DNA of 24,489 nucleotides from a virus (IMGVR_UViG_3300038548_000248:1-24489); one strand, 5' to 3'; positions 12,054 through 24,489 are shown, counted from the stretch's first letter. Program-made: numbers and translations. Notes: generated by a model not told the origin, from the letters alone.

Positions 12054-12061
12054 TTGAGTGA

Positions 12062-12089
12062 ACATTACAGCAATACTACATCAAGTCAA
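12062..12089 (-). promoter_or_regulatory. Promoter of operon C
   Basis: TTGACT (five of six -35 matches) and TAATGT (three of six, preceded by GCTG) are 16 nt apart on the minus strand. The stretch from the -35 to the GGGTAACA box is clearly related to the promoter at 16122-16150, sharing TTGACT, GATGTA, GCTGTA and TAATGT. Confidence 0.6.
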
Positions 12090-12100
12090 TAGATGCGGTC

Positions 12101-12631: not shown

Positions 12632-12633
12632 AT

Positions 12634-13393: not shown

Positions 13394-13394
13394 G

Positions 13395-13598: not shown

Positions 13599-13834
13599 GT
13601 CAGTTCCTCAAGCTCGTCGATGCCTGGGCAGAAGGTGTCGCACTCGTCGTACGGCCACCAGTCGGGGATCGAGTCGACCTGGATCTCCACGGCGTCGTGA
13701 GTCGTCACTTTCTTGCCGTCGACGTAGAATGATTCGCTCGGGTAGTGAGTGATCACCTTCCCGGTGACCGTGTTCTCTGGTCTGTCTTCGCGAGTGAATC
13801 GAACACGTGTTCCGATGTCAGGCATGGTCTTCAT
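13595..13834 (-). CDS. Small beta-barrel-like protein (79 aa)
   Basis: The product begins MKTMPDIGTRVRFTREDRPE and has the layout of small SH3-like barrels: G-T-x-V-x-F, then TVTGKVITHYP, then SFYVDGKKVTTHDAVEIQVD. The C-terminal tail is acidic with two cysteines (WPYDECDTFCPGIDELEELT). Such barrels often bind nucleic acid or proteins, but the tail's acidity argues against simple DNA binding. It overlaps its neighbours as ATGA. Confidence 0.6.
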   Translation of the reverse strand: MKTMPDIGTRVRFTREDRPENTVTGKVITHYPSESFYVDGKKVTTHDAVEIQVDSIPDWWPYDECDTFCPGIDELEELT

Positions 13835-14010
13835 TTGTCGTAGCTCCAGCGCCGATCACTTGAGTCGATGGCGCAATTGCGGTGGGCCAGGTCAACAGAA
13901 TCAACGAGCAGGTCGTCGGTGTAATTCGTGTACTCCGCCAGGTCCGCGGCCGGCGTACCGGCCGGGATTGTTTCCTGGCAGAGAGTGCACGAGACGGCTT
14001 GCTCGATCAT
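13831..14010 (-). CDS. Tiny zinc-site protein (59 aa)
   Basis: The ATG at 14010 overlaps the upstream TGA as ATGA; an in-frame ATG 12 codons earlier is less likely. The product begins MIEQAVSCTLCQETIPAGTP and later has DLAHRNCAIDSS, so C8-xx-C11 plus a His and a Cys (LAH-RN-C) could bind one zinc ion, as in small treble-clef or zinc-knuckle proteins. Function unknown. Confidence 0.6.
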   Translation of the reverse strand: MIEQAVSCTLCQETIPAGTPAADLAEYTNYTDDLLVDSVDLAHRNCAIDSSDRRWSYDK

Positions 14011-14399
14011 GCGGCTTCCCTCAGATCTTGGAGTTCCTTCTCCCACTCAACGAGTTGAGCGGTATCTGCTTCTCGAATTGCAGGACCGTTTGGGCCGGTA
14101 TACGACTTACCGTTTTCTTCGCAGCCCTCGATCCACTTCAGCTGCTTGATGATGTTCGTCGTCAGGAACGACTGGCGTTTCTGTGTCGGTGTCATGGCGT
14201 CTTCCCTTATTGCTCGAGCGGCCTTGACCAGGTCACGAAACGGACTCGGTCGCTTGCCACCATCGATGCGGTTGAGGTGTACCCAGATGCCCGCCCAGTA
14301 GCCGAACATCGCGAACTTGTACCTGGCCAGGGAGTCGATCGCCTTGTCGGCGGCTTCCTGGATCTCGGCGTCGAGATTCTTTCTGGTCTCAGCATTCAT
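14007..14399 (-). CDS. Unknown helical protein (130 aa)
   Basis: The ATG at 14399 overlaps the upstream stop (TGATG). The product starts MNAETRKNLDAEIQEAADKA and is helical and charged, with an aromatic segment (YKFAMFGYWAGIWVHLNRID, about residues 26-45) that is amphipathic rather than clearly membrane-spanning. The C-terminal part (KQRQSFLTTNIIKQLKWIEG-like, then EADTAQLVEWEKELQDLREA) ends in a probable coiled coil. No family is recognised. Confidence 0.65.
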   Translation of the reverse strand: MNAETRKNLDAEIQEAADKAIDSLARYKFAMFGYWAGIWVHLNRIDGGKRPSPFRDLVKAARAIREDAMTPTQKRQSFLTTNIIKQLKWIEGCEENGKSYTGPNGPAIREADTAQLVEWEKELQDLREAA

Positions 14400-14641
14400 C
14401 AGTTCACCTGTTCCTGTATCATTTTGAGTGATGCCCTGGCAGACAAGATCAGCCCGCGATATTCCTCCCAGTTGTAATTTCCTGGGTGAGCGTAGTGCCC
14501 GGCGTCTGATTTCAATTCGGCCAATTGCTCTGGCGTACATTCGAGGACCATGGCGGCCTTGTTCTCGGTGATGTAGGTGCCAATATCTAAGCAGCGATCA
14601 ATTGCATCCTGGCCATACTTGGGTTTGATTTGGATACGCAT
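14399..14641 (-). CDS. Small unknown protein (80 aa)
   Basis: The product begins MRIQIKPKYGQDAIDRCLDI. It contains a TYITENKAAMVLECTPEQLA segment and a mostly helical C-terminus (RASLKMIQEQVN). It starts four bases after the previous gene's stop and overlaps the next as TGATG. I see no catalytic or metal motif. Confidence 0.6.
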   Translation of the reverse strand: MRIQIKPKYGQDAIDRCLDIGTYITENKAAMVLECTPEQLAELKSDAGHYAHPGNYNWEEYRGLILSARASLKMIQEQVN

Positions 14642-14645
14642 CAGT

Positions 14646-14825
14646 TCATCTGCTCTCGAAGTTTTCGGCGTAAACTCGCTCGGTTATGCGGTAGACGTCA
14701 GCGCCGGTCAGGCACTTATCCGTGTACCGAACCGCGACCTCGTCGCACTCGTCTCGGATGTAATCATCGTCGACGCCTTTGTGCGCGAGTTCAGCGATTC
14801 GGTACAGGTCAGCGGATAGGTTCAT
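14646..14825 (-). CDS. Tiny unknown protein (59 aa)
   Basis: The real start is the ATG at 14825, forming ATGA with the 46-aa gene upstream. A far longer in-frame extension to 15059 is an arginine-rich shadow and is rejected. The product (start MNLSADLYRIAELAHKGVDD) is helical and acidic with two cysteines and ends RVYAENFESR. No function is visible. Confidence 0.6.
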   Translation of the reverse strand: MNLSADLYRIAELAHKGVDDDYIRDECDEVAVRYTDKCLTGADVYRITERVYAENFESR

Positions 14826-14962
14826 GCTGCTGCCTTGACGGTGTCCAGGTGCAGGACGTTGTCGCGTGCGTACCGATGGGCGGCTGCGTGTGCCAGCTGC
14901 TTGCTGTACGCGGTGAAGGTGACCAGGATCTTGCCGTTGAACTTTGCGATGTAATCTCTCAT
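14822..14962 (-). CDS. Tiny gene (46 aa)
   Basis: A very short frame runs from an ATG at 14962 to a TGA at 14822, with ATGA overlaps at both ends that make it a convincing operon member despite its size. The product begins MRDYIAKFNGKILVTFTAYS and has a helix (KQLAHAAAHRYARDNVLHLD) and a short alanine tail. The beta-hairpin-helix layout resembles other small single-domain phage proteins. Function unknown. Confidence 0.7.
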   Translation of the reverse strand: MRDYIAKFNGKILVTFTAYSKQLAHAAAHRYARDNVLHLDTVKAAA

Positions 14963-15780
14963 GATTTGCCCTCGGTTGATTCTGCCAATACGATTGCTTT
15001 GGTTGGTCGCTTAGTGAACCCGAACTTGTCGTCTCGATCGCTGATCTGCAGCGTTGCATCGAACTGAACCCGCAGACCTCTAATCTCGTCGCGGTAGCTC
15101 AGGATCGTGTGTTCGTTGTCTTCGTTTTTGCCTTCAACCTGCCAGAAAGCAGACGGGCAAGTGCCCCACAATTTGAAACCGCGGTCATCCAAGAAAATTA
15201 TTTTAGTGACCGAGCCGCCGAAGCCATCTGGCTCTGATCTGTGGCCCAGAATCTCGCCGGTAAAAGTGTGACGGCCCTCGGCCAGGTCATGCGGGATCGG
15301 TCGGAGCAGCGCCTCCAGTTCGGCATCGCGTTTCTTGCGTTCCTCGAGCCTGATCTCAGCCTTTGACTTACCGAGGTTCAGATCTTCGAGCGCGGTGAGC
15401 AGTGACTTCATGCGCGGCTTGGTCGATGTGAAATTGTCGCGGATGTAGAGCAGGTACTCGCGGCCCTTTTCATCCTCGAGTAGGTCGGCGATCGCTTTGC
15501 CCTCGTGCTTGCCGAACCACAGATAGTCGTCTTCATAGACGCCAGGCTTGCGAAGGGTGCCGCCCTCGTCGGAGATGTCGTATTGCTTGATGTGATCGCA
15601 GGGATTTTGGTCGAGCCACTTGTCTGCATTTTTGCAAGCGGTCTCCCAGGTACGTCCGAGATTGCGAACGTAGGTGTATATTTTCACGCCGGGGAACTCT
15701 GGTCGGTCGACGAGCTTGCGGTGCAGCGTGTACAGCGCGCTGGTTCTGCCGATCTCGATCCAGGCTATGAACTCTCTCAC
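14959..15780 (-). CDS. Multi-domain phage protein with DUF3820/ExoX-C-like middle domain (273 aa)
   Basis: The GTG at 15780 overlaps the upstream TGA (GTGA). Three parts are visible. Residues 1-75 (start (M)REFIAWIEIGRTSALYTLH, then YTYVRNLGRTWETACKNADK) match the N-terminus of a phage protein family I recall. Residues 87-125 (YLWFGKHEGKAIADLLEDEK, then YLLYIRDNF) match the small FGKYKG domain found at the C-terminus of ExoX and in DUF3820. Residues 175-273 look like an OB-fold (HTFTGEILGHRSEPDGFGGS, then GLRVQFDATLQISDRDDKFG, then FTKRPTKAIV). No nuclease active site is visible. It may bind DNA; this is inference. Confidence 0.75.
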   Translation of the reverse strand: MREFIAWIEIGRTSALYTLHRKLVDRPEFPGVKIYTYVRNLGRTWETACKNADKWLDQNPCDHIKQYDISDEGGTLRKPGVYEDDYLWFGKHEGKAIADLLEDEKGREYLLYIRDNFTSTKPRMKSLLTALEDLNLGKSKAEIRLEERKKRDAELEALLRPIPHDLAEGRHTFTGEILGHRSEPDGFGGSVTKIIFLDDRGFKLWGTCPSAFWQVEGKNEDNEHTILSYRDEIRGLRVQFDATLQISDRDDKFGFTKRPTKAIVLAESTEGKS

Positions 15781-16079
15781 GATGCCTTCCTCGCTACGAC
15801 GCGAACGGTGTCGATGTTGATCTTGCTGGTGTTGGCGGCGATCTGCTGATTCGAGGCGCCGAGCTTTGTGGCGATGGCCTTCCATGCAACCTGCTTGCGG
15901 ATGCTGTGGCTGACGGTGGAGCGGAACAATTCGCCATCGATCTCGCTGAAACCTGAGTCGATGAGGACTTTTTGCAGGTCGCCTTTCTGCTCTTGAAGTG
16001 CGGCGATCTCTGCGAGAACTACTCCCAGGTCATCGGAAGCTTTGATTAGCTTCGGTGTGATCCGTGTCGTTTTTGCCAT
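15777..16079 (-). CDS. Conserved phage protein, first gene of operon D (100 aa)
   Basis: The product starts MAKTTRITPKLIKASDDLGV. A coiled-coil segment (VLAEIAALQEQKGDLQKVLI) comes next, then a compact motif (SEIDGELFRSTVSHSIRKQV, then AWKAIATKLGASNQQIAANT) and a VRVVARK end. I recognise this arrangement (coiled coil, E-x-DGELFRATVS, DWKAIAAKL, QLIAAHT, VRVVARK) from small phage proteins of unknown function. The ATG has AGGAG seven bases upstream and lies in a short leader behind a good promoter. ATGA-type coupling (GTGA) links it to the next gene. Confidence 0.8.
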   Translation of the reverse strand: MAKTTRITPKLIKASDDLGVVLAEIAALQEQKGDLQKVLIDSGFSEIDGELFRSTVSHSIRKQVAWKAIATKLGASNQQIAANTSKINIDTVRVVARKAS

Positions 16080-16104
16080 GATTGGACTCCTGTATAATCT
16101 GATT

Positions 16105-16112
16105 TGCTACCC
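16105..16112 (-). promoter_or_regulatory. GGGTAGCA box (variant) at operon D start
   Basis: Reads CCAAGGGTAGCAAATC on the minus strand, 38 nt from the first base of the -35 at 16150. The single change from the other four copies is A to G at the sixth base. The shared AAATC follows, as at 12046 and 8256. Confidence 0.6.
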
Positions 16113-16141
16113 TTGGAACTGACATTACTACAGCTTAGTAC
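16113..16141 (+). promoter_or_regulatory. Possible rightward promoter before operon E
   Basis: TTGGAA and TAGTAC are 17 nt apart on the plus strand, in the gap divergent from operon D and overlapping its promoter. Both hexamers are partial matches. No better rightward site is visible before the first gene of operon E. Confidence 0.3.
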
Positions 16142-16150
16142 ATCAGTCAA
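16122..16150 (-). promoter_or_regulatory. Promoter of operon D
   Basis: TTGACT and TAATGT are 17 nt apart on the minus strand. The sequence from -35 to the box is related to the operon C promoter. The transcript would start about 40 nt before the ATG at 16079. Confidence 0.65.
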
Positions 16151-16168
16151 GGGACTGGGGGGTGAAAT

Positions 16169-16432
16169 TTGGATGTGATCCGTGGCATGATTGTCACTAG
16201 CGTGAACGCTACTGTTGAGATCCTGGTGCCCAGCCACAAGGCGCGGCTGCCAGGCTGGACCAGGTTAGAGGCTGCCGGCAAAGTGCTCGAGGCCATAGGA
16301 CTGGAGATTGAGGGTGCGAACAGAATCGAGATCAAGCCCGTCAGCGAGGATGACTCCCTGATGATCTGGCACGAGTTCCCAGGCGACTACAACCGCGTCT
16401 CCAAGGTATTTGGATTCGGTATCGATGATTGA
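16169..16432 (+). CDS. Unknown protein before terS (87 aa)
   Basis: The frame begins with TTG at 16169, four bases after a GGGGGGTG run; an in-frame GTG at 16175 and an ATG at 16187 are alternatives, and I cannot decide between them. The product is a small alpha/beta protein (MIVTSVNATVEILVPSHKAR, then RLEAAGKVLEAIGLEIEGAN, then DSLMIWHEFPGDYNRVSKVF). It overlaps terS by 8 nt, so it is probably translated together with it. No family is recognised. Confidence 0.6.
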   Translation: MDVIRGMIVTSVNATVEILVPSHKARLPGWTRLEAAGKVLEAIGLEIEGANRIEIKPVSEDDSLMIWHEFPGDYNRVSKVFGFGIDD

Positions 16433-17093
16433 GATCGATCGACACAATGGCCGTGGCTGGCCGAAGACCAGGCAACAGGATGCTCTGTGCCTGGCGATCG
16501 TCATCGAAGGATTGAGCCTTGTCGAAGCCGGCCGCAAGGCAGGTTATTCCGAGACCACCGTCCGGAAGAAAATACCGACGCTGGCGAAACAGCTGGCGCC
16601 ATACATCGCGCATCTCCGAGAGGCGAAGGCCGAAGTCATCCAGCGCAATTTCGATGTGACCGTCGATCGCGTCGTCGACGAGCTTGCCGCGATGGGCTTT
16701 GTCAATCCGAAGGATTACATACGGGTGGTCCGGTACCGCGACGTCGATATGGTGATCGGCAAGTCGCCGTTAGATCTCACTGACGACCAGGCGAAAGCCG
16801 TCGCCAACTGGGACCGCGTCAAAGTGATCGTCGATGGCGGCTACGATTTCGATTACCAGTACTCATTCCACGATAAGCGCCAGTCGCTCCGCGACATGGG
16901 CCAGCACCTCGGCATGTTCAACGAGAAACTGATCCTCGAGCAGCGCATCACCAAGACCTACCGGGTGGATCTGTCCCAGGTGCCAGACGATATTCTCGAG
17001 CAGTGGATGGGAGACTTGAAGAAGCACGCAGCGCAGCTGCCTGATCAAAGTAAGCCAGCAACGATTGATAACCAAACAGGAGCAGTAACGTGA
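16425..17093 (+). CDS. terS: Terminase small subunit (Terminase_2-like)
   Basis: The 222-aa product starts MIEIDRHNGRGWPKTRQQDA. The N-terminus holds a helix-turn-helix (LCLAIVIEGLSLVEAGRKAG, then YSETTVRKK) matching the AA-x-RAGYS pattern of phage small terminases. The middle includes TVDRVVDELAAMGFVNPKDY, typical of the ITxERVLxELAxIAF block, and the end has the conserved KRQSLRDMGQHLGMF. The small subunit recognises phage DNA at the packaging site and helps the large subunit start packaging. The ATG at 16425 overlaps the previous gene by 8 nt. The cognate large subunit lies 7 kb away. Confidence 0.88.
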   Translation: MIEIDRHNGRGWPKTRQQDALCLAIVIEGLSLVEAGRKAGYSETTVRKKIPTLAKQLAPYIAHLREAKAEVIQRNFDVTVDRVVDELAAMGFVNPKDYIRVVRYRDVDMVIGKSPLDLTDDQAKAVANWDRVKVIVDGGYDFDYQYSFHDKRQSLRDMGQHLGMFNEKLILEQRITKTYRVDLSQVPDDILEQWMGDLKKHAAQLPDQSKPATIDNQTGAVT

Positions 17094-17105
17094 TGAAGAA
17101 TTTAA

Positions 17106-17191
17106 GGAGAGGACGCGCAATAGGAAGTGCACCGGACTGTAAATCCGTGGTCGGTTCATCCGTGGGGGTTCGACTCCCTCTCTCTCCACCA
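17106..17191 (+). tRNA. tRNA-Tyr (anticodon GUA), CCA encoded
   Basis: The acceptor stem pairs GGAGAGG (17106-17112) with TCTCTCC (17181-17187, one G-T pair), followed by A and an encoded CCA. The D arm (GCGC/GTGC) contains the GG loop. The anticodon loop is CTGTAAA with GTA in the middle. A long variable arm follows, as expected for class II tRNA-Tyr in bacteria, then a T arm with loop TTCGACT. Total length is 86 nt. The first anticodon-stem pair appears mismatched (C-T). It lies 13 nt after terS and likely shares its transcript. Confidence 0.93.
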
Positions 17192-17194
17192 AAG

Positions 17195-17470
17195 TTGGTT
17201 GCTCTCGCAATCCTGGTGTGGGCGGCCTTGATGCCGAATGCCGAGGCCGATGACGATCTATTCTGGTACGCATACCCGATGCCGCAGGCTTATCTCTACG
17301 TCCAGGATCCAGTGCGGTACGCATTGTGGAGCGCTCATTATGGCGACAGCCAGGCTCGCGTGCCGATTGGATATTCGATCTATACGCCTGTCGTGCGGCA
17401 CCACAGCAACAGCAGGCTGCGCCGCCGAGCATGCGAGATCAGGATCCTGGCTGGCCATGGCCGACTATGA
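17195..17470 (+). CDS. Small protein with Sec-type signal peptide (91 aa)
   Basis: The open frame continues upstream through the tRNA, but that part is only the translated tRNA. I place the start at the TTG at 17195, three bases after the CCA. The first residues, (M)VALAILVWAALMPNAEA, form a plausible hydrophobic signal segment ending in an AEA-type cleavage site. The mature part is aromatic and tyrosine-rich (DDDLFWYAYPMPQAYLYVQD), then basic (HHSNSRLRRRACEIRIL). No family is recognised. Export to the periplasm or membrane is inferred. The non-ATG start and lack of a clear ribosome site lower confidence. Confidence 0.45.
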   Translation: MVALAILVWAALMPNAEADDDLFWYAYPMPQAYLYVQDPVRYALWSAHYGDSQARVPIGYSIYTPVVRHHSNSRLRRRACEIRILAGHGRL

Positions 17471-17633
17471 ACCCGAGTGTCCGGAGTGCGGTGAGGATAT
17501 GGTGAAGCGCAGGAACCGAATGACCGGAGACGAGTTCTACGGCTGCTCAATGTATCCGCAGTGCACCGGCACAGAATCGATAAGCGATTACAGGAAACCA
17601 GATTACCCAGCTTGGGCAAAGGATCCGAACTAA
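17457..17633 (+). CDS. Stand-alone topoisomerase-type C4 zinc finger (58 aa)
   Basis: The ATG at 17457 overlaps the upstream gene by 14 nt. The product (start MADYEPECPECGEDMVKRRN) has CPECGEDMV, then FYGCSMYPQCTGT, which is the four-cysteine finger of the topoisomerase I C-terminal family: C-x2-C, a G-x-FYGC step, and a final P-x-C. In topoisomerases these fingers bind single-stranded DNA. Here the finger stands alone with a short acidic/proline tail (YRKPDYPAWAKDPN). DNA binding is likely; a specific role is unknown. Confidence 0.75.
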   Translation: MADYEPECPECGEDMVKRRNRMTGDEFYGCSMYPQCTGTESISDYRKPDYPAWAKDPN

Positions 17634-18103
17634 TGCCGGCGACGACTCGCGTTGAGTTGACGTTTGCCGAAACCCTGCAGGGAGCATTCGCAGGTATCTG
17701 CAGGCAAGTCGAGAATTTGAAGAAAAACCGGAAGCCGTATTACGGCGCCGGCACTGACAAGGATTGGCAGAAACATATCGATGGCTGCCTCGGTGAGAAG
17801 GCTTTAGCAAAATACCTGGGCGTCTACTGGAGCGGCAAGGGTGGATTCCGTGGGCCTGATGTCGAGGACTTCCAGGTTCGCACGACGCAGTATGCGAATG
17901 GCCACTTGCTCTTACACCCGGAAGATGACGACGATAAAACCTTCTGGCTGGTGACAGGGCTGAACGGGATCTACGATATCCGCGGCCATATTTTGGCAGG
18001 CCGTGGCAAGCTAGATGAATTTTGGAGAGATCGCCCCAATGATCAGTCGGCCTATTTTGTGCCGCAGTCAAAGTTGAGGATGCCACATGAACCAACCGAG
18101 TAG
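17633..18103 (+). CDS. Phage protein with possible nuclease-like fold (156 aa)
   Basis: The ATG at 17633 overlaps the previous TAA (TAATG); an upstream extension is rejected. The segment HIDGCLGEKALAKYLGVYW, then GPDVEDFQVRTTQYANGHLL, then TFWLVTGLNGIYDIRGHILA is a pattern I recall from phage hypothetical proteins. The order GE, then PD, then a Q-V-R-T strand is reminiscent of PD-(D/E)XK nucleases (GE helix, PD turn), but the expected E-x-K is not clearly present, so activity is uncertain. It lies in the operon between the zinc finger and small genes. Confidence 0.65.
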   Translation: MPATTRVELTFAETLQGAFAGICRQVENLKKNRKPYYGAGTDKDWQKHIDGCLGEKALAKYLGVYWSGKGGFRGPDVEDFQVRTTQYANGHLLLHPEDDDDKTFWLVTGLNGIYDIRGHILAGRGKLDEFWRDRPNDQSAYFVPQSKLRMPHEPTE

Positions 18104-18269
18104 GCACGACATGTTCGCCCTGGCGGAGACGTTGGAAATAGAGTCGCGATTCTATAACGAAGTTGCTAGACTCCGGCAAACGCACGGAGGGTACCGTGAT
18201 GCCGAGCAGGTCGAACAAGCAAGCCAGGTACATGGCGATGATGGCGAACAATCCGGAGAAGGCGCGTAA
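18087..18269 (+). CDS. Small overlapping ORF (60 aa)
   Basis: The ATG at 18087 has GAGG seven bases upstream and overlaps the previous gene by 17 nt. The product (start MNQPSRHDMFALAETLEIES) is helical and acidic. Its last 71 nt overlap the next gene in another frame, where the other gene has the stronger ribosome site. It may be real but shortened, or partly spurious. No family is recognised. Confidence 0.4.
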   Translation: MNQPSRHDMFALAETLEIESRFYNEVARLRQTHGGYRDAEQVEQASQVHGDDGEQSGEGA

Positions 18270-18366
18270 GGCTGGCGTCTCCCAGGCAGTAGCCAAAGAT
18301 TTCAACAAGGCCGATTCCCGTTCTGGGCGGCTATCCAAAGCGATGAAGAAACGTGGGCGCAAGTAG
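18199..18366 (+). CDS. Conserved small basic phage protein (55 aa)
   Basis: The ATG at 18199 is behind GGAGGG with a 7-nt spacing, an excellent site. The product (start MPSRSNKQARYMAMMANNPE) is strongly basic and resembles a small phage protein family I recall with the layout MPSKS-KQARFMAAxANNPxFAKK-GV-xxVGKEF-xAD and a lysine-rich end. Members are encoded in structural or packaging modules of many phages; their role is not established. DNA binding or virion association would fit. Confidence 0.8.
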   Translation: MPSRSNKQARYMAMMANNPEKARKAGVSQAVAKDFNKADSRSGRLSKAMKKRGRK

Positions 18367-18661
18367 AGACTGCGGTCACTTCAGTGTGGGCCTGCACATT
18401 ACTGGCGGGCTGCGCAGCGGTGGCGGGAGGCTAGTCAAGTGGGATCAAAAATTCAAAGACCGCACCGCCAAGGCGCTCGAGAAACTCCAGAAAAAATACG
18501 AAGAGAAGTTGCTGGCCGAATTCTGCAAGACGATCGGCTGGGATGAAGAGGCTGCGGCCGAGGCAGTGGCAGCCGCGGAATCTGATCGCGATGCATTGCT
18601 GGCTGCTGACAAGACAGGCAGGGACGAGAAGCAAGCCAGGCGAGTAGCTGCTCGGGTGTAG
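18353..18661 (+). CDS. Helical charged protein (about 76-102 aa)
   Basis: The strongly coding part is WDQKFKDRTAKALEKLQKKY, then EEKLLAEFCKTIGWDEEAAA and an alanine/aspartate-rich end, a long charged helix. The true start is unclear: a GTG at 18353 overlaps the previous gene by 14 nt, and a GTG at 18386 has no ribosome site. The frame between these starts and the helix is glycine-rich and looks weakly coding. No family is recognised; a coiled-coil virion or DNA-binding accessory protein is possible. Confidence 0.55.
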   Translation: MGASRDCGHFSVGLHITGGLRSGGGRLVKWDQKFKDRTAKALEKLQKKYEEKLLAEFCKTIGWDEEAAAEAVAAAESDRDALLAADKTGRDEKQARRVAARV

Positions 18662-18669
18662 CGTGTTGA

Positions 18670-18688
18670 CGCAGTGCCCGGTACTGCG
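18670..18688. other. Short stem-loop in 155-nt gap
   Basis: CGCAGT-GCCCGGT-ACTGCG is a perfect 6-bp stem with a 7-nt loop in the gap between 18661 and 18817. No T-tract follows. The rest of the gap holds one possible 20-codon frame from the ATG at 18741 (MARWPTWNTCLYALGALFDH) with no good ribosome site. Nothing else is seen. Confidence 0.3.
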
Positions 18689-18816
18689 TGAGTGCGTTCG
18701 GCCCGAGACAACAAACTGCACGGGGCTACGGTAAGACCAATGGCGCGTTGGCCCACCTGGAACACATGTCTCTATGCGTTGGGCGCGCTCTTCGATCACT
18801 GAGAGGAGGGCACGTT

Positions 18817-19005
18817 ATGGACTTTCTCAAGAAGATGGGCAAGCAAGCGATACTCGCCGGCATCGTTGCCATCGTGCTGTTTTTCGTGTGGCCTGGCGCC
18901 ACGACATTATTCTTCGGAGGCATGGCCGCCGGCATCATCATCGGCAACCTCTCCGATCCCGTCGAGAAAATAGCCGAGAAAATCATCGACAAAATCCCAG
19001 CTTAG
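18817..19005 (+). CDS. Small two-helix membrane protein (62 aa)
   Basis: The ATG at 18817 follows AGGAGG with a 7-nt spacing. The product starts MDFLKKMGKQ and has two hydrophobic segments, AILAGIVAIVLFFVWP and LFFGGMAAGIIIGNL, then an amphipathic tail ending DPVEKIAEKIIDKIPA. This is a small inner-membrane protein with two short helices. Size and topology would allow a holin-like role, but it lies before the packaging genes and no other lysis gene is visible, so I do not call it a holin. A GTG at 18688 in the same frame is rejected. Confidence 0.7.
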   Translation: MDFLKKMGKQAILAGIVAIVLFFVWPGATTLFFGGMAAGIIIGNLSDPVEKIAEKIIDKIPA

Positions 19006-19014
19006 GAGACAGCT

Positions 19015-19233
19015 ATGGGCCGCAGGAAAGATCTCAAACGCAGGCAGGGAAATGCTGCCGGCATAGCGCGCAACAGACAGCGCGTGGCACCAGCATCAAA
19101 CGGAGGCGGCGCCACTGCAGCCGTGGATCCAGCCATGGATAATTCGTGCTCGAAGTGCGGAGCGAAACCTGGCGAGATCTGCGTGACACCCAGCGGCAAC
19201 CCGGCAGCCAAGACACACGCCGCTCGAGGGTGA
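19015..19233 (+). CDS. DNA-binding phage zinc-finger protein (72 aa)
   Basis: The ATG has AGGAG eight bases upstream. The first 40 residues are basic (MGRRKDLKRRQGNAAGIARN), then a zinc motif: CSKCGAKPGEICVTPSGN, then KTHAARG. This is the common phage zinc finger C-x2-C-GA-x-PGE-x-C-x-T-x-SG ... H-x-x-R, proposed to bind DNA. It ends the first block of operon E, just before a T-rich terminator-like site. Confidence 0.8.
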   Translation: MGRRKDLKRRQGNAAGIARNRQRVAPASNGGGATAAVDPAMDNSCSKCGAKPGEICVTPSGNPAAKTHAARG

Positions 19234-19284
19234 TAGTATTCAGAACGCGAAGCCTGCCTGTACTTCATTGAACCTCGGGGTAGG

Positions 19285-19325
19285 AGCCGGGGGGAATCCA
19301 AGGGAGCATCCAGAGGCTTTTTTTT
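19285..19325 (+). terminator. Candidate intrinsic terminator with T8 tract
   Basis: The sequence GGAGCC, a G-rich loop region, then GGCT is followed by eight T residues (19318-19325). The stem is only AGCC/GGCT plus a few internal pairs, so its strength is uncertain, but a T8 run after a GC-rich inverted repeat is unusual here and typical of rho-independent termination. It lies in the 117-nt gap between 19233 and 19351. The next gene has its own strong ribosome site. Confidence 0.45.
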
Positions 19326-19350
19326 AGCACACCATTGTTGGAGGGCCACA

Positions 19351-19626
19351 ATGGACGAGCGATTGAAACCAGGGCAGCTTCACGAGACGCCTGAAGAGAA
19401 GAATGATCCGGACCTGCACGCGCACGAGTTGCCCGACGTAGGGTTCGGCCTTCGGGAGATGGGTGACTATCCATACTTCCCAGACTACGATCCACCGAAA
19501 GCGACACGAGCGGCCGATGAAGGCTCCTCTGCTGAACTACGTCGCGAACGGGTTGGCAAAGCGGAGAGCGGCGGCTACACGGATCCTGCCTATGGCAAGG
19601 TACGTTCGTTCCCATCGCAGAAGTAA
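19351..19626 (+). CDS. Unknown acidic/proline-rich protein (91 aa)
   Basis: The ATG follows GGAGG with six bases spacing. The product (start MDERLKPGQLHETPEEKNDP) is low in hydrophobic residues and rich in P, D, E, G and Y (YPYFPDYDPPKATRAADEGS), so it is probably mostly disordered. A tyrosine/proline segment recurs near the end (YTDPAYGKVRSFP). It starts a run of three hydrophilic proteins (to 20218) with similar character. No family is recognised. Confidence 0.65.
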   Translation: MDERLKPGQLHETPEEKNDPDLHAHELPDVGFGLREMGDYPYFPDYDPPKATRAADEGSSAELRRERVGKAESGGYTDPAYGKVRSFPSQK

Positions 19627-19973
19627 TGGCCGATCGTAGGGCAGATCGTAGGGCGAATGCAGGCAGGCCTGACAAGCCGGCGGAGAAACCAGTCGTTGCT
19701 CACGGTGCTCCACTGTCAACACCGAAGCCTAAACCTCCAAGCGCGCAGCGCCCGAAAGCGGGTCCTGCCGATGAGGAAACCAGGCGCCGCGAGATTGAAC
19801 GTCGCGTCCAGGAAGGCAAAGACGCCAGCGAGAACGCTCGCGACACCCCGGTAACGAAATCAACAGCACCGAAGCCACCACCGAAGACTATCGGCGAGCC
19901 TGGTCGGTCCACGTACACTACGCTACGAGACCGAGGCAAGGACACGGATGAAGCCGTGGAGAGGGAGCAGTAG
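19626..19973 (+). CDS. Basic disordered protein, first of a P/K-rich pair (115 aa)
   Basis: The ATG overlaps the previous TAA (TAATG). The first codons contain a 12-bp tandem repeat (GATCGTAGGGCA/G) giving MADRRADRRANA. The remainder is proline-, lysine- and arginine-rich (PKPKPPSAQRPKAGPADEET, then RRREIERRVQEGKD, then APKPPPKT), with one charged helix. This composition fits an unfolded, DNA- or protein-binding protein. Its proline-lysine motifs recur in the next gene, suggesting related function or ancestry. Confidence 0.6.
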   Translation: MADRRADRRANAGRPDKPAEKPVVAHGAPLSTPKPKPPSAQRPKAGPADEETRRREIERRVQEGKDASENARDTPVTKSTAPKPPPKTIGEPGRSTYTTLRDRGKDTDEAVEREQ

Positions 19974-20218
19974 TGCCCTCTTCACGGTCAGCCAAAGAGA
20001 TCTGCCGTGAGGATCCGAAGAGCATCTCGTGCAAGGTAGCAACGAGTCGCGAGGCGCGACGTAAGCGCCGTGCTGAGGAGTTCGGCGAAGCTCCGGCTCC
20101 CAAGCCACCGCCGAAGAAGCCAGCGCCGAAGAAGCCACCGCCTCCGAAGCCAGTGACTGAGCGCCATCGGTACCTTGAGGAGCAGATCAGCAAGGGCGAG
20201 GGATCGAACGAAAGCTGA
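19973..20218 (+). CDS. Basic disordered protein, second of a P/K-rich pair (81 aa)
   Basis: The GTG at 19973 overlaps the previous TAG (TAGTG). The product starts (M)PSSRSAKEICREDPKSISC and has a lysine-proline tract (PAPKPPPKKPAPKKPPPPKP) encoded by three tandem 15-bp repeats at 20111-20155, then a helical end (ERHRYLEEQISKGEGSNES). Two cysteines are near the N-terminus. It seems unfolded and basic; a role with DNA or the virion is possible. No named family. Confidence 0.6.
   Translation: MPSSRSAKEICREDPKSISCKVATSREARRKRRAEEFGEAPAPKPPPKKPAPKKPPPPKPVTERHRYLEEQISKGEGSNES
20111..20155 (+). repeat. Three 15-bp tandem repeats inside a coding region
   Basis: CCGAAGAAGCCAGCG, CCGAAGAAGCCACCG and CCTCCGAAGCCAGTG follow each other directly; the first two differ by one base. 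They encode PKKPA, PKKPP and PPKPV and keep the frame, so the repeat number may vary between relatives. Confidence 0.7.
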
Positions 20219-20250
20219 ACGAAACGCGAACGAGAACTGAACGGTCGTTC
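20206..20250 (+). repeat. GAACG repeats at exact 11-bp spacing, with inverted end copy
   Basis: GAACG begins at 20206, 20217, 20228 and 20239, one per 11 bp, each followed by six bases that are often A-rich (GAACGAAAGCT, GAACGAAACGC, GAACGAGAACT). The last GAACG is followed by GT and the inverted CGTTC (20246-20250), making GAACGGTCGTTC. The array spans the end of one gene and the 53-nt gap before the Tat-like gene at 20272. Confidence 0.75.
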
Positions 20251-20271
20251 AAGTCCAGACGAGGTCACGAC

Positions 20272-20622
20272 ATGAAGAGACGAGGATTCCTTAAGCGCCT
20301 GGCCGGCGTAGCCACCGCCGCGGTAGTGAGCGAGCGAGTCATCCCTGATGACGGCGTGTCGCTGTATAGTGCCGCGCACCCAGTATCCACGGAGGGCTTC
20401 GGGCTGGCGCCGATCAAGGCTGAGGGTGCGACCATCCCGTATGATCTGAGCGAGGAGTCGCTCGAGCAGGTCTGCATTGATGTGCACGAGCAGTATCGAT
20501 GGGTAACGTCTCGCCGGCTATTCGATTTCAGACGTCGTGTGATCGATGCTGTGGAGATTGACGTTCGAGAAGGCGACGGCGCTGATTTGTACCACCTGAT
20601 GCGCTTCAAGATTCCTCGATAG
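20272..20622 (+). CDS. Tat-type signal protein with capsid-like segment (116 aa)
   Basis: The ATG has GAGG seven bases upstream. The N-terminus MKRRGFLKRLAGVATAAVV has the twin-arginine motif RRGFLK followed by a hydrophobic stretch, a good Tat signal. The next part, DGVSLYSAAHP and later PYDLSEESLEQVCIDV, resembles a segment of a phage major capsid family I recall (DGVSLxSTAHP ... DLSEAALEQAxIDI). The C-terminus (RRLFDFRRRVIDAVEIDVRE) does not match that family clearly. It may be a capsid-derived piece given a new N-terminus. The 11-bp GAACG array lies just upstream. Confidence 0.6.
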   Translation: MKRRGFLKRLAGVATAAVVSERVIPDDGVSLYSAAHPVSTEGFGLAPIKAEGATIPYDLSEESLEQVCIDVHEQYRWVTSRRLFDFRRRVIDAVEIDVREGDGADLYHLMRFKIPR

Positions 20623-20626
20623 TGCG

Positions 20627-21049
20627 ATGACTCCCAAGGTCCTGGTATACGTCGACGACGGCACGATCGACATCAGGCATACCCGTGGTGTCGAGGTCGC
20701 TGTGATCGTCGAAGGGGAGGACGTAGTGGTCCCAGACGACTGGGTGGGACTGAGCGTCAACCAGCACCATTCCCTGCCAATCACCATAAACCGGGAAGAA
20801 ATGCCTCAAAAGCGACCTCTGGCGTGCAATTCTACGGGACTCGTGGGTACCAAGACTCCAGAACTTGATCACAGCGGCCTCATGAAGGCGCCGTACTGCC
20901 CTGATTGTGATGGGAATCATTCGCTGAGTATAGGATGCGATGGCCTGCCGAAGACCTGCAGCTGCTGCGGTGCTACCTATGGACAGCTGCATAGCACGGG
21001 CTGCGCTGACCAGAACCCGCTCGTCGAAGGTGGGAACATAGTGCAGTGA
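20627..21049 (+). CDS. Cysteine-rich phage protein (140 aa)
   Basis: The ATG at 20627 follows the previous gene by four bases. The N-terminus (MTPKVLVYVDDGTIDIRHTR) is beta-rich and resembles short phage proteins starting KVLVYLDGG. The C-terminal half has zinc-type pairs: C91-xx-C94, C104, C111-xx-C114 (CSCCG), H122 and C126 (LHSTGC). The final CSCCGATYGQLHSTGC resembles a zinc-ribbon end seen in phage proteins. Two metal sites are possible. Function unknown. Confidence 0.65.
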   Translation: MTPKVLVYVDDGTIDIRHTRGVEVAVIVEGEDVVVPDDWVGLSVNQHHSLPITINREEMPQKRPLACNSTGLVGTKTPELDHSGLMKAPYCPDCDGNHSLSIGCDGLPKTCSCCGATYGQLHSTGCADQNPLVEGGNIVQ

Positions 21050-21243
21050 ACTGGCTCAAGGTCGTCGTCGTCTACTACATCCTGATCTACCTGCTACTGG
21101 GCCGTATCGCCGTCGACCTCTTCGACCTGGTCACCTGGGGAAATATGATCGGACTGTTCATAGGTTGCTGTGTCGGGCATTACTTGGGTAAAATAGATGC
21201 AGGTGGGTTACAGGTAGGCAGCGGTAGGAGCCGGAAAGCGTGA
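21046..21243 (+). CDS. Small membrane protein (65 aa)
   Basis: The GTG at 21046 overlaps the previous stop (GTGA). The product starts (M)NWLKVVVVYYILIYLLLG and continues RIAVDLFDLV, then MIGLFIGCCVGHYLG, giving two hydrophobic segments, then a short basic tail (SGRSRKA). It is predicted to be an inner-membrane protein of two helices. Which side the ends face is not clear. No family is recognised. Confidence 0.65.
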   Translation: MNWLKVVVVYYILIYLLLGRIAVDLFDLVTWGNMIGLFIGCCVGHYLGKIDAGGLQVGSGRSRKA

Positions 21244-21261
21244 ATCGGACCACAGGATACG

Positions 21262-21435
21262 ATGGAAGTACGAGGAAACGATCAGCATCGCGCTGCGCTT
21301 AGTGAACTGAGCAGAAGACTCGGAGGGTACGCTATTGTCATCGATGAAGAGATCCCGGACGACGAGATCCACGTTATTGAAAAGCTCAACGGGGGAGTGC
21401 CTGCCAAGCAGGTCGTCTACCTCGAGGGCGCCTGA
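21262..21435 (+). CDS. Tiny protein (57 aa), possibly first half of a frameshifted gene
   Basis: The ATG has AGGA five bases upstream. The product (start MEVRGNDQHRAALSELSRRL) is well-formed: a helix, GYAIVIDEEIPDDEIHVIEK, and an end LEGA before TGA at 21433. Immediately after this stop, the +1 frame continues with a convincing coding segment (PEVIILDDLSPTEPP) that lacks its own good start. The two may be one protein split by a frameshift, or two genes; see the next entry. Confidence 0.65.
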   Translation: MEVRGNDQHRAALSELSRRLGGYAIVIDEEIPDDEIHVIEKLNGGVPAKQVVYLEGA

Positions 21436-21550
21436 GGTCATCATCCTCGATGACCTGTCTCCCACTGAGCCACCGACAACCGAGGATCGCGAGCGGCTCA
21501 AAAGCTGGTGGATGAGATCCATGCTTGATCGCTCCAGGCGCCAGCTGTGA
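21344..21550 (+). CDS. Small acidic/basic protein (about 40-68 aa), start uncertain
   Basis: The convincing part is APEVIILDDLSPTEPPTTED, then RERLKSWWMRSMLDRSRRQL, beginning near 21430. The frame is open upstream to an ATG at 21344 and a TTG at 21377, but that portion is serine/arginine-rich and overlaps the 57-aa gene, like a shadow. No good ribosome site precedes any start. The protein may be produced by a +1 shift at the upstream TGA, or from a weak start. It overlaps the following gene as GTGA. Confidence 0.45.
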   Translation: MKRSRTTRSTLLKSSTGECLPSRSSTSRAPEVIILDDLSPTEPPTTEDRERLKSWWMRSMLDRSRRQL

Positions 21551-21915
21551 AGCTGGACCAGGCTGACTTCATCCGGGCGGGCGATATGCCGCCTGAAGCG
21601 CTGCAGGGCTATCTTGATGCCGGCTTCGCGTTCTTCGAGATCCTGAAGGACCATGGCAACGGCAAAGACGATGTCTATCCGCTGTGCTCGATGGTGATCG
21701 AGCGCATGCAGGAGGAACATCTCAAGCATGCCGAGACCATGGACTCGGATGATGTGTTCTCCTGGTCGATCCTCGTGCTGGTGCTGGCGACGACGATGAA
21801 GGTGTGCATCAACGGCAACCCGCTCTACAATACCGAGGCACTGACAGATCAGCTGCGCCATCAATTCGAGCAACTGCTGCGCTCGTCCAAGGCGATAGAC
21901 TGCAAGCCATCATGA
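21547..21915 (+). CDS. Unknown helical protein (122 aa)
   Basis: The GTG overlaps the previous stop (GTGA). The product (start (M)KLDQADFIRAGDMPPEALQ) is all-helical and acidic (YLDAGFAFFEILKDHGNGKD, then VIERMQEEHLKHAETMDSDD), with one hydrophobic helix (VFSWSILVLVLATTMKVCIN, about residues 70-89) that may be a buried core or a single membrane segment. The C-terminus (TDQLRHQFEQLLRSSKAIDC) is amphipathic. No family is recognised. Confidence 0.65.
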   Translation: MKLDQADFIRAGDMPPEALQGYLDAGFAFFEILKDHGNGKDDVYPLCSMVIERMQEEHLKHAETMDSDDVFSWSILVLVLATTMKVCINGNPLYNTEALTDQLRHQFEQLLRSSKAIDCKPS

Positions 21916-22157
21916 TCACGATCAAGAACATCAGCAAAGAGGAGGTCGAGCTAGTGCCGCATCTCGATAGAGGTGTGCCTGGTTGTCGGTTAGCTGATCA
22001 GACGCTGGCAACCGAGATATTACGTCCGGATGACGAGATCACTTTCATGGCTTATGAACCCGGTATCAGCTATACGATTCGCCCAGTCAAAGCCCCAGAA
22101 GTGCCGCGGAAGCGTGGCGCTCATGGTGGTTTCGCAATGCAAAATGGAGGTGGATGA
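21912..22157 (+). CDS. Small beta-rich protein (81 aa)
   Basis: The ATG overlaps the previous stop (ATGA); a longer in-frame extension is rejected. The product starts MITIKNISKEEVELVPHLDR and looks beta-rich (LRPDDEITFMAYEPGISYTI), with a glycine/arginine-rich tail (RKRGAHGGFAMQNGGG). Layout suggests an Ig- or jelly-roll-like small domain, such as a capsid decoration or assembly factor, but no match is recognised. Confidence 0.6.
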   Translation: MITIKNISKEEVELVPHLDRGVPGCRLADQTLATEILRPDDEITFMAYEPGISYTIRPVKAPEVPRKRGAHGGFAMQNGGG

Positions 22158-22158
22158 C

Positions 22159-22389
22159 ATGGCAGCCACATCGGTTTTCGCTGACGACCTCCTCGACATG
22201 AAGTATCGAGCGCACGAGCGCTATGCGTTCGGCTGGACCGACTACCGCGGGATGTACTCGAAGCAGCGCGTCAAGCGCGTCAAGCTGGCCACTCGCAATT
22301 ACGACCAGTTCATCACCAACTTCATGGGCATGGTGATCATCATGATTCCCGTGACCATCATCACCTACTGGCTGTGGCCCTGGCTCTGA
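22159..22389 (+). CDS. Protein with C-terminal membrane helix (76 aa)
   Basis: The ATG follows GGAGG eight bases upstream. The product begins MAATSVFADDLLDMKYRAHE, then YAFGWTDYRGMYSKQRVKRV, and ends in a strong hydrophobic segment (FMGMVIIMIPVTIITYWLWP). This is a single-pass, tail-anchored membrane protein with a soluble N-terminal part. No catalytic motif. Role unknown. Confidence 0.7.
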   Translation: MAATSVFADDLLDMKYRAHERYAFGWTDYRGMYSKQRVKRVKLATRNYDQFITNFMGMVIIMIPVTIITYWLWPWL

Positions 22390-22565
22390 TGAGCACGCCA
22401 GCCGAACTTGAAGACCTGGTCGAGAAGTGGGGCGCTGAGCGCGTCGAAAAGACGATGATCTTCATCGAGCTATCGGAGGATGCCCGCGGCCTGTTGGTCA
22501 GCATCCCGTGTACCAAAGAGCGAGTCGGAGCGGTCCTCGAGGCCGTCTATGGAGAATACGAATGA
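22389..22565 (+). CDS. Tiny acidic protein (58 aa)
   Basis: The ATG overlaps the previous stop (TGATG). The product (start MSTPAELEDLVEKWGAERVE) is an acidic alpha/beta miniprotein (KTMIFIELSEDARGLLVSIP). It looks like a fold of one helix and a few strands. ATGA overlap with the following gene. No family recognised. Confidence 0.6.
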   Translation: MSTPAELEDLVEKWGAERVEKTMIFIELSEDARGLLVSIPCTKERVGAVLEAVYGEYE

Positions 22566-22768
22566 AGGCATACATCGGCACGAAGGTCGTGCAGGCCGAG
22601 CCGCAGAAGAAGTCAGTCGTCTTTGATGGCGAGACACCTGATGACGGTTACAAGGTCGTGTACGAGGATGGCTACGTTTCCTGGTCGCCGAAGGAAACCT
22701 TCGAGCGGTGCTATCGTGAGGTCACGATCGCAGAGTCGGCGCTTATTCTTGCTGGAGATGTCACATGA
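22562..22768 (+). CDS. Conserved MKAYIGTK-type phage protein (68 aa)
   Basis: The product (start MKAYIGTKVVQAEPQKKSVV) continues DDGYKVVYEDGYVSWSPKET and ends after FERCYREVTIAE. I recognise this from a very common small phage protein: M-K-YIGTK-V-A-P ... GY-V-YEDGY-SWSPK-F-AYR. No function is established. Flanked by ATGA overlaps, it is a clear operon member. Confidence 0.8.
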   Translation: MKAYIGTKVVQAEPQKKSVVFDGETPDDGYKVVYEDGYVSWSPKETFERCYREVTIAESALILAGDVT

Positions 22769-23322
22769 AACGATTAGCAACTTTAGCCGCTTTAGCGGTA
22801 CTGCTGTTCTCTCAAATTACGCATGCCGGCGAGGCAATGCTCAGCTGGGTGGCGCCGACGCAGAACACTGACGGCACGGCGCTGACTGACCTGGCCGGCT
22901 TCAAGATCTACGCCGGCCTGGTGCAGGGTGGACCGTATGGCGACGTCAGCATCACGATCAACAACCCGACGGTGACGACATTCACGGTGCCAGGCCTCGC
23001 CGAGGGCACAACGTACTTCTTCGTAATAACGGCATTCAATAGCGCGGATCCAGTGGAGGAAAGCGACTTCTCCAACGAGGCCACCAAGCTCATACCGCCG
23101 CTGGTACCGATGCCGCCGACCATGCTGACTGTGCAGAACCTGCTGGTCTGGGATGTGCTCAAGGAAGATGATCACTTCAAGTTCCTGGGTGTCGGCACGG
23201 TGCCCGGCGGCACTGCGTGCGATCCAACGCAGGTCGTGAATGGCAGGTACGTGGTGCCGAACGATCTGGTGGAATGGTTTGGCAACGTCCGGCCGCCAGT
23301 GGTGGTCGCTGACTGTTCATGA
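22765..23322 (+). CDS. Secreted fibronectin type III-like protein (185 aa)
   Basis: The N-terminus MKRLATLAALAVLLFSQITHA is a classic Sec signal peptide with an AHA-like cleavage site. Residues 24-110 read as one fibronectin type III domain: LSWVAPTQNTDGTALTDLAG, then FKIYAGL, then TFTVPGLAEGTTYFFVITAF, then SNEATKL. A second part (VQNLLVWDVLKEDDHFKFLG, then GRYVVPNDLVEWFGNVRPPV) has no match I know. FN3 domains bind glycans or proteins and occur in tail proteins, but a separate signal-peptide version before terL is unusual. Its site of action would be periplasm or outside the cell. Confidence 0.8.
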   Translation: MKRLATLAALAVLLFSQITHAGEAMLSWVAPTQNTDGTALTDLAGFKIYAGLVQGGPYGDVSITINNPTVTTFTVPGLAEGTTYFFVITAFNSADPVEESDFSNEATKLIPPLVPMPPTMLTVQNLLVWDVLKEDDHFKFLGVGTVPGGTACDPTQVVNGRYVVPNDLVEWFGNVRPPVVVADCS

Positions 23323-23492
23323 GATTATGGGAGCGGATCCGAGCTTGGCTGTGCCGCAAGTTCGGATGGTTCTGCAAGCAGGATCCGCTGGGGCCAGTTG
23401 AGAATGCGAGAGTAGAGATTGGAGAGAGCGATGACGACAGCGACAGCGAGATGGGGAGTACCAACGAAGCGACAGAGCGGCCTGCCGGTTGA
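23319..23492 (+). CDS. Small basic/acidic protein (57 aa)
   Basis: The ATG overlaps the previous stop (ATGA). The product (start MRLWERIRAWLCRKFGWFCK) has a tryptophan- and cysteine-rich basic helix, then an acidic disordered tail (ENARVEIGESDDDSDSEMGS). The helix could associate with a membrane surface, but it is too charged for a clear transmembrane segment. It overlaps the next gene by 62 nt in another frame. Function unknown. Confidence 0.6.
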   Translation: MRLWERIRAWLCRKFGWFCKQDPLGPVENARVEIGESDDDSDSEMGSTNEATERPAG

Positions 23493-23745
23493 CCCGGACG
23501 ACTACAAGGGCTGCGAGATAGCGATCGCGGTTGCCGGTGGCCCGTTCACCGTACTCACGGACCTGGTGCCGACTGGCACGTTTGAGCGGGAGATGCCGCC
23601 TGACCTGACGCCGGGTGACTACGAGTGCCGCTATGTGCCGATCGATGTCGACGATGTCCGCGGCAAGCAGAGCATAGTCCCGTTCAAAATCCGAGACGAG
23701 ACAGCGCTTGATGAGGTCGACAACCCGACGGTCGACGTCGTCTAG
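23431..23745 (+). CDS. FN3-like beta protein (104 aa)
   Basis: The ATG at 23431 lies after GGAGAG. The product (start MTTATARWGVPTKRQSGLPV) has a fibronectin-like layout: ARWGVPT..., then YKGCEIAIAVAGGPFTVLTD, then MPPDLTPGDYECRYVPIDVD. It has no signal peptide and ends in an acidic tail (DETALDEVDNPTVDVV). This form is common in phages as a virion or decoration-like domain. It may pair with the FN3 protein two genes upstream. Confidence 0.65.
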   Translation: MTTATARWGVPTKRQSGLPVDPDDYKGCEIAIAVAGGPFTVLTDLVPTGTFEREMPPDLTPGDYECRYVPIDVDDVRGKQSIVPFKIRDETALDEVDNPTVDVV

Positions 23746-24047
23746 TGAAGAGACGCACATTCATCCTGGGCGCTGTCGCTGCTGCGGTGAGCGCTGCGCT
23801 GCCGGCACTGCCGAGCGATGGCTACGAGTACAAGACGGTCAGCATGGGCTTCACGATCGCCAAGGAGGAGGTCCATGGCAAGGGCGTCTACGGTGCGATC
23901 GGCCGGCGCTACGCTGACGCACTGGCCAAGTCGATGAGCCAGACCAAGGAGCGCGTCATTGCCGACGTACTCAGCAGAGCATTCGAAGATTCGGGCGAGG
24001 GCGCACGGAGATCGATCGGGGTCGAGGGCAGTCCTGATCGTATTTAA
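23745..24047 (+). CDS. Tat-type signal protein with second capsid-like segment (100 aa)
   Basis: The GTG overlaps the previous TAG (TAGTG). The N-terminus (M)KRRTFILGAVAAAVSAAL has RRTFIL and a hydrophobic alanine-rich stretch, a Tat-like signal. The rest (YEYKTVSMGFTIAKEEVHGK, then YGAIGRRYADALAKSMSQTK, then ERVIADVLSRAF) resembles a phage major capsid segment I recall (GF-V-KE-x-DD-YG, RRAKALAxSM-QTKE-VAANVxNRAF). That segment normally lies just before the DGVSL-S-AHP part seen in the 20272 gene. It ends two bases before terL. Whether it is functional or a relic is unknown. Confidence 0.6.
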   Translation: MKRRTFILGAVAAAVSAALPALPSDGYEYKTVSMGFTIAKEEVHGKGVYGAIGRRYADALAKSMSQTKERVIADVLSRAFEDSGEGARRSIGVEGSPDRI

Positions 24048-24049
24048 CG

Positions 24050-24489
24050 ATGTCACTGACGCAGCCGCAGCAGCAGGCAACCTTCACGGAGATGGAGGCG
24101 GAATGGCTGCGTCGTGACCTGAGGCGCTACGTCCCGAAGGTCTGGTCGCTGGTCGAAGCTCGGGAGTTCAAGAATAACTGGCACATCGATGCCATCTGCG
24201 ATCACCTGGCATACGTGACGCTGGGCGACATCCGCAACCTGATCATCAACGTGCCACCCAGGCAGACCAAGTCGCTGACGGTCTCGGTCATCTGGCCAAC
24301 CTGGTGGTGGGCCGATGAACCGCAAATCCAGTTCATGTACTCGAGCTATTCGCACGACCTGGCGCTGCGTGATGCGGTCAAGGCGCGCGACATCATCCAG
24401 TCTGGCTGGTACCAGGACCACTACGGCGGCAAGTTCTATCTGGATCCGGGGCAGAACCAGAAGCACCGCTACGTCAATGACAAGCACGG
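24050..24489 (+). CDS. terL: Terminase large subunit, N-terminal part
   Basis: The gene runs off the right edge; 146 codons are visible. The product starts MSLTQPQQQATFTEMEAEWL. It has the ATPase P-loop variant NVPPRQTKSLTVSV (about residues 67-80), the P-P-R-x-x-K-S form used by many large terminases. WHIDAICDHL comes before it and FMYSSYSHDLALRDAVKARD after, both typical of the family. The protein is the packaging motor and its C-terminal nuclease is outside the window. The ATG lies two bases after the previous stop, without a strong ribosome site. Confidence 0.95.
   Translation, partial: MSLTQPQQQATFTEMEAEWLRRDLRRYVPKVWSLVEAREFKNNWHIDAICDHLAYVTLGDIRNLIINVPPRQTKSLTVSVIWPTWWWADEPQIQFMYSSYSHDLALRDAVKARDIIQSGWYQDHYGGKFYLDPGQNQKHRYVNDKH

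Follow-up and report, generated by a model that had tools for sequence, protein, structure and literature searches.

A family of small phage proteins with permuted motifs of the major capsid protein and predicted membrane or export signals

Three small proteins of the virus record IMGVR_UViG_3300038548_000248, which in its entirety (24,489 bases) forms the window analyzed here, are members of a predicted family, known from one group of uncultured phages, of small proteins whose putative membrane or export signal is followed by freely permuted, short conserved motifs of the major capsid protein (MCP). P0001 and P0002 are our working names for two of them, and G and L numbers denote other phage contigs or loci. 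P0001 (20272-20622; 116 aa; all features are on the plus strand unless noted) has a signal of the twin-arginine translocation (Tat) type and capsid pieces in the permuted order D-E-H, with homologs in G001 to G006. P0002 (23745-24047; 100 aa) has a Tat-type signal, pieces F and G, and a conserved tail. The third protein (22159-22389) combines a piece of the MCP C-terminus with a predicted C-terminal transmembrane segment. A preliminary description of this DNA had reported the first two open reading frames (ORFs) as having Tat-like starts, and both were found, beginning MKRRGFLKRLAGVATAAVVS and VKRRTFILGAVAAAVSAALP, the signals being recognizable by motif and curated profiles staying below threshold.

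The capsid similarity of these proteins was evident in several searches. In tblastn against 50,697 records of named phages, P0002 residues 27-97 matched only six places, all of them capsid genes (best 43.5% identity, 4e-6), including, over residues 27-87, the annotated MCPs of Roseobacter phages CRP-901/902, phage DSL-LC04, Alcaligenes phage QDWS535, and HTVC023P; one of the six is annotated as hypothetical with Mu GpT in its note. The third protein, and likewise the passenger of a relative from L048, matched only within MCP genes. P0001 had no relative in these records, and MCP genes were the only annotated relatives of the three window proteins in this collection. A hidden Markov model (HMM) of about 88 Mu gpT-like MCPs, run unfiltered on the 7,439 six-frame ORFs that nine phage records and seven additional loci yielded, detected P0002 (2.4e-12, MCP 78-136), P0001 (4.6e-4, MCP 134-179), and the third protein (1.3e-6). 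Matches with E below 0.03 comprised three true MCPs and only these small proteins and their relatives, the next match being at 0.6, and for none of the five proteins examined in this way did any of 2000 shuffles reach the real score. These results confirm the capsid-like content that had been proposed for P0001 and P0002, and also their reversed order in the window, as the P0002 piece precedes the P0001 piece in the MCP. PDB sequence searches with the MCP and with P0002 gave no match, the small proteins found nothing useful in PHROGs and PADLOC (PADLOC best E 0.05), and Pfam and NCBIfam returned only sub-threshold Tat matches.

The pieces were numbered on the G001 MCP as N-arm helix (A, 3-31), E-loop (E, 48-70), second E-loop strand (F, 76-97), spine helix (G, 98-134), loop (D, 134-151), P-domain helix (H, 160-181), and C-terminal strands (I, 262-302). 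Each piece was given an HMM of its own, which was searched against 9,682 target ORFs, with 23,061 ORFs of about 160 other phage loci that have this MCP family serving as controls. The best control score was exceeded by 4 target ORFs for A, 18 for E (15 clear, the last three marginal), 6 for F, 23 for G, 1 for D, 9 for H, and 6 for I; five pieces (A, E, G, H, and I) were individually significant in the family, while F and D were weaker. In P0001, piece D (20347-20382, DDGVSLYSAAHP) resembles MCP 137-148 and is weak alone, being significant jointly with H. Piece E (20395-20445, GFGLAPIKAEGATIPYD) resembles E-loop residues 52-68 (22.6 bits, E 1e-4; best of the controls 7.2 bits), and piece H (20443-20484, DLSEESLEQVCIDV) resembles P-domain helix residues 164-177 (12.8 bits; best control 6.5). 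P0001 is therefore internally permuted, since the E-loop piece is present alongside D and H. In P0002, piece F (23823-23885), from the second E-loop strand region, resembles MCP 78-97 and alone scores 11.0 bits against 10.6 for the best control, and piece G (23886-23984, VYGAIGRRYADALAKSMSQTKERVIADVLSRAF) resembles spine helix residues 98-130 (40.9 bits, 1.8e-10; best control 12.3). Piece I of the third protein (22198-22257, MKYRAHERYAFGWTDYRGMY; protein segment HMM 3.4e-9) resembles MCP 277-297 and is 67-70% identical to the MCPs of Caulobacter phages. The earlier view of "two halves" of a capsid sequence is too simple: P0001 also has the E-loop piece, the third protein has the MCP C-terminus, and the family as a whole has five individually significant and two weaker pieces.

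The A-domain is not represented among the pieces. Three segment HMMs of the A-domain each placed 0 of the target ORFs above the best control, and these segments are as conserved as the pieces (relative entropy 2.8-3.4). With the whole-length MCP HMM, the control phages gave no match other than the MCP gene itself (best 0.95), and the same was true of 18 MCP loci from bacterial and archaeal genome records. In G001, G002, G004, and G007, no other large protein was a source of pieces, leaving the MCP as the sole one. Residues conserved in MCPs (DGVxL.S..HP, K.EG...YD, DL.E.SLE, ALARSM.QTKE) are retained in distant and permuted members. A further element, D' (LLHDAAHH), is common to the small proteins of relatives and only weakly MCP-like, and was not counted as a proven piece. 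The motifs are related to the HK97-fold, Mu gpT-like MCPs of Roseobacter CRP-901/902, Pelagibacter HTVC023P, and Caulobacter GB2A, from which the small proteins differ in being about 70-130 aa long and permuted and in carrying an added export or membrane signal; with no A-domain match and a permuted order, a full-length HK97 fold is impossible for them. The AlphaFold model of P0001 was poor (predicted local distance difference test score, pLDDT, 60; predicted template modeling score, pTM, 0.38), and the small proteins are for this reason not assigned a fold.

The same pieces occur in about 20 related contigs, where as many as three small genes of a phage contain them, in many orders and after several different RRxF signals; in short members, single assignments of order rest partly on reading of the sequence. 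The P0001 relatives in G001, G004, G005, and G006 have the order D-D'-E-H-A. L052, in which the P0001 gene was not found, has D'-E-F-G followed by the same tail as P0002 with its order F-G. L048 and L050 have D'-E-G-F, with I in another L048 gene, while L231 has G-F and D-D'-E-A, and L232 has E-F-G and D'-E-D-A-H. The order is F-H-G-D in L236 and L274, D-F-G in L237, F-G in L239, and D-F-G-H in L383. In the window and in G005, piece I is followed by a C-terminal membrane segment; in L048 it comes after a signal, and in G001 and, weakly, in G006 it lies within a short ORF. Between the phages of L237 and L274, the flanking DNA is about 84% identical and the MCPs are near-identical, and the small gene is rearranged; its signal, piece G, and flanks still align despite this. 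That motif content survives changes of order suggests selection on short motifs rather than on one fold. In addition, a C-terminal motif after the capsid pieces, EFLHVEGISREEMY, is common to L235 (6055-6321), L236 (724-1200), and L274 (448-1053), and its source was not found among the loci examined.

Judged by motif, most of the small proteins carry a twin-arginine-type export signal. In the Tat pattern seen at their start, two arginines are followed, two positions later, by a hydrophobic residue and then by a segment of weak hydrophobicity (Kyte-Doolittle 1.5-2.3 over 12 residues), with motifs such as RRGFLK, RRTFI, RRDFI, and RRKFLK; this start is absent from the third window protein and its counterpart in G005, and from the short ORFs of G001 and G006. 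Scores stayed below the cut-offs for Pfam TAT_signal (P0002 15.1 bits, cut-off 22.7) and for TIGR01409 (cut-off 16.7; P0001 14.6 bits and, narrowly, the second L048 gene 16.6). The signals are better conserved than the passengers, and for the signal-like N-terminus of P0001 (20272-20331, RRGFLK) the nonsynonymous divergence (dN) between homologs is 0-0.1. In the third protein, the predicted transmembrane segment (22309-22374; Kyte-Doolittle 2.06 over 19 residues) has the basic stretch KQRVKRVKLATR just before it and is kept in G005.

Relatives in IMG/VR have an intact Mu gpT-like MCP of 304 aa that shares 58% identity with its counterpart in Roseobacter phage CRP-901; the model of the 304-aa protein shows the HK97 fold (pLDDT 79; Foldseek matches to encapsulins and phage capsids, 3e-10). 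In G001 its gene lies at 19745-20656, and the P0002 homolog is about 12 kb upstream of it; an own MCP is present in the more complete carriers G001, G004, G007, G011, G013, G015, G018, G021, G023, and G024. Close pairs of P0001 homologs have a synonymous divergence (dS) of about 0.3 and a dN of 0.08-0.17 (dN/dS about 0.25-0.5), and since dN is well under dS, the small genes are maintained proteins under purifying selection. It would be very improbable for them to be assembly artefacts or the remains of a capsid gene that had been duplicated or broken. The pieces are homologous to the MCP and tandem-copy deletions could in principle give permuted orders, but this is opposed by the purifying selection, by the intact MCP elsewhere, and by reading frames that stay open in about 20 contigs obtained from many different samples, with the same architectures in separately assembled contigs. 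The broken, shuffled capsid gene suggested in the preliminary description is accordingly not supported, because the more complete relatives have intact MCP genes and the motifs are kept through several permutations, and its other suggestion, small proteins built from capsid pieces, gained support, their exported status being predicted by motif.

In comparisons with MCPs, the own MCP is usually not the closest to a piece. Residues common to a piece and the G001 MCP have the same codon at 50 of 111 positions against 48.6 expected, so there is no trace of recent copying from the MCP. Recent duplication of the own MCP was rejected on the lack of codon-level similarity and on the distance to the own MCP. 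Averaged over 28 pieces, which came from ten phages, the own MCP was outscored by 37% of the 159 MCP clusters (the piece-A value for G004 in this comparison is an artefact of a trimmed MCP N-terminus). In the phages with divergent MCPs, G011, G013, G015, and G023, most pieces are closer to foreign MCPs than to their own; for example, piece D of L237 is 79% identical to a Desulfuromonadales locus against 50% to the own MCP, and piece G of L274 is 76% identical to a foreign MCP against 52% to its own. Piece G of the small proteins was as close or closer to piece G of other small-protein groups than to any MCP in 18 of 18 cases, and "SMM" occurs in it in 15 of 18 small proteins against 19 of 203 MCPs at that place. 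Given this resemblance and the shared "SMM", the pieces descend from the MCP family but by now appear to be an exchanged set of their own.

A RecT family single-strand annealing protein is encoded on the minus strand (4297-5373, 2.5e-21) and could help the shuffling of pieces. It also fits a different reading, in which capsid fragments would be raw material joined to signals by recombination for a membrane function unrelated to capsids. The modular, permuted make-up of the genes, the higher conservation of signals than passengers, and the absent nucleotide trace of the own MCP agree with this. However, the residues kept in distant and permuted members are the MCP-conserved ones, the MCP was the sole large-protein source in four genomes, and no pieces come from its A-domain. 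We regard such an origin as rather unlikely.

The small genes adjoin a packaging gene in a tightly packed arrangement. The P0002 start overlaps the stop codon of the preceding gene, and the ATG of the terminase large subunit gene (terL; 24050-24489, phrog_4758 7.3e-25), whose 5' part ends the record, lies 2 bases past the P0002 stop; in several carriers a small gene is directly upstream of terL. The P0002 tail (23991-24044, SGEGARRSIGVEGSPDRI) is not capsid-like, and its last 18 codons up to terL (23991-24049) are nucleotide-conserved even in G002 and G003, where the remaining P0002 is lost; this DNA is possibly a packaging site or regulatory. Similarly, the sequence immediately 5' of P0001 (20219-20271, GAACGGTCGTTCAAGTCCAGACGAGGTCACGAC) is near-identical across G001 to G006, contains the short inverted repeat GAACG-GT-CGTTC, and is a possible regulatory element. 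At 22765-23322 there is a fibronectin type III protein (fn3 6.8e-6) with a signal-like N-terminus, probably secreted, which several close relatives have just upstream of the capsid-piece gene and terL. G004 has an open frame of 13.3 kb (10052-23398, minus strand; about 4,450 codons) for a very large protein. The adjacency to terL, the gpT-like MCP of all sufficiently complete carriers, and the C-terminal anchor of the third protein, whose preceding basic residues would place piece I in the cytoplasm, might suggest helpers of the phage's own head, that is, membrane-anchored docking or nucleation peptides holding MCP at the inner membrane during prohead assembly. This seems improbable: the pieces do not track the own MCP, L237 and L274 have near-identical MCPs and different piece sets, and MCP assembly in general needs no such pieces, because none was detected in the control ORFs, whose phages also have this type of MCP.

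The reading that we favor, tentatively and with some doubt, is that membrane-targeted capsid mimics disturb the capsid assembly of related phages. In the HK97 fold, parts of the N-arm, E-loop, spine-helix, and P-domain type form contacts with neighboring subunits. The small proteins may be made late, together with the packaging genes, and tethered to the inner membrane or exported through it, where they would mimic these surfaces. By binding subunits, they might impair capsid formation by any co-infecting phage or induced prophage with the same MCP type, and recombination might reshuffle the repertoire of pieces as rivals change. The closeness of pieces to foreign MCPs in carriers with divergent MCPs may be taken to favor interference, as may the survival of motifs through reordering, the absence of A-domain pieces, and the purifying selection, and Ccm of SaPIbov5 offers a precedent by analogy. 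Several points weigh against it. Tat transport would carry a passenger into the periplasm and so away from assembling capsids, unless the passenger acted before export or stayed anchored. Self-harm must be avoided because the MCP of the carriers themselves belongs to this broad family. In addition, the pieces resemble the MCP family generally rather than an identified rival (identity to the MCPs examined reached about 80% at most), and the own MCP is the nearest one for pieces H and A in the G001 group.

The recombination-born genes above are a close rival of interference, and so is an anti-sensor decoy, in which MCP motifs would occupy or sequester a host defense protein that senses new capsid protein, so that infection is not aborted. 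A decoy role, as well as surface exclusion, was among the possibilities raised in the preliminary description. The Lit protease recognizes a short linear piece of the T4 MCP, the Gol peptide (mentioned in PMC3014915), and CapRel-SJ46 binds newly made MCP (PMC9712102). Bacterial MCP sensors thus exist, recognizing whole or short MCP elements as signals; these are host sensors, whereas here the phage encodes the capsid-like piece. Short, order-independent motifs would fit a linear-epitope decoy, and quick rearrangement between close phages an arms race. On the other hand, a mimic of the trigger should itself trigger the sensor, leaving the cytoplasm is odd for a decoy, and neither a PADLOC match nor a partner defense gene was identified, and we consider the decoy unlikely. 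The export signal is the main difficulty for both mimic models.

Proteins acting on phage capsids are known from mobile elements. Ccm is a capsid homolog that redirects the assembly of its helper and suppresses the capsid of another phage, and four of the mutations that give resistance fall in a patch of the P-domain to which the spine helix belongs (PMC8569155). The likeness lies in a capsid-protein homolog on a second element that can alter a phage capsid; Ccm, however, is a full-length, satellite-made HK97-fold protein acting inside the capsid, whereas here short shuffled motifs carry signals. A satellite without full head genes does not describe the present carriers, with terL adjacent in the window and an own MCP in ten relatives. 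P4 Sid is another mobile-element protein acting on capsid assembly. PLE TcaP and the SaPI size-redirecting proteins are reported to act likewise (PMC10945586, PMC12409344). The likeness to these proteins would be the action on capsid assembly. To our knowledge, none of them is built from MCP pieces with export signals. Capsid-motif peptides of the proposed kind would follow a logic comparable to that of the Gag-derived restriction factors of animals, with linear motifs in our case.

Literature searches, in which subscription journals were mostly not covered, found no description of capsid pieces after Tat-type signals. Known families with such an architecture did not come to light, and the family looks new, a statement on architecture and not on function. 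Coat proteins are usually regarded as single conserved folding units, whereas here their conserved motifs appear excised, permuted, joined to export or membrane signals in a dedicated gene family, and selected irrespective of order. A repertoire of capsid-motif peptides, diversified by recombination into a separate shuffled set in each phage and sent to the membrane, may be an undescribed weapon against the heads of competitors or a shield blinding capsid sensors, a serious possibility that still falls short of being probable. Should these proteins target capsids or the sensors of capsids, they would add a further level to the conflict among phages or between phage and host, and supply ready-made peptides to probe capsid assembly. 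Otherwise, the family would still be an unusually clear case of new-gene formation by shuffling one old gene.

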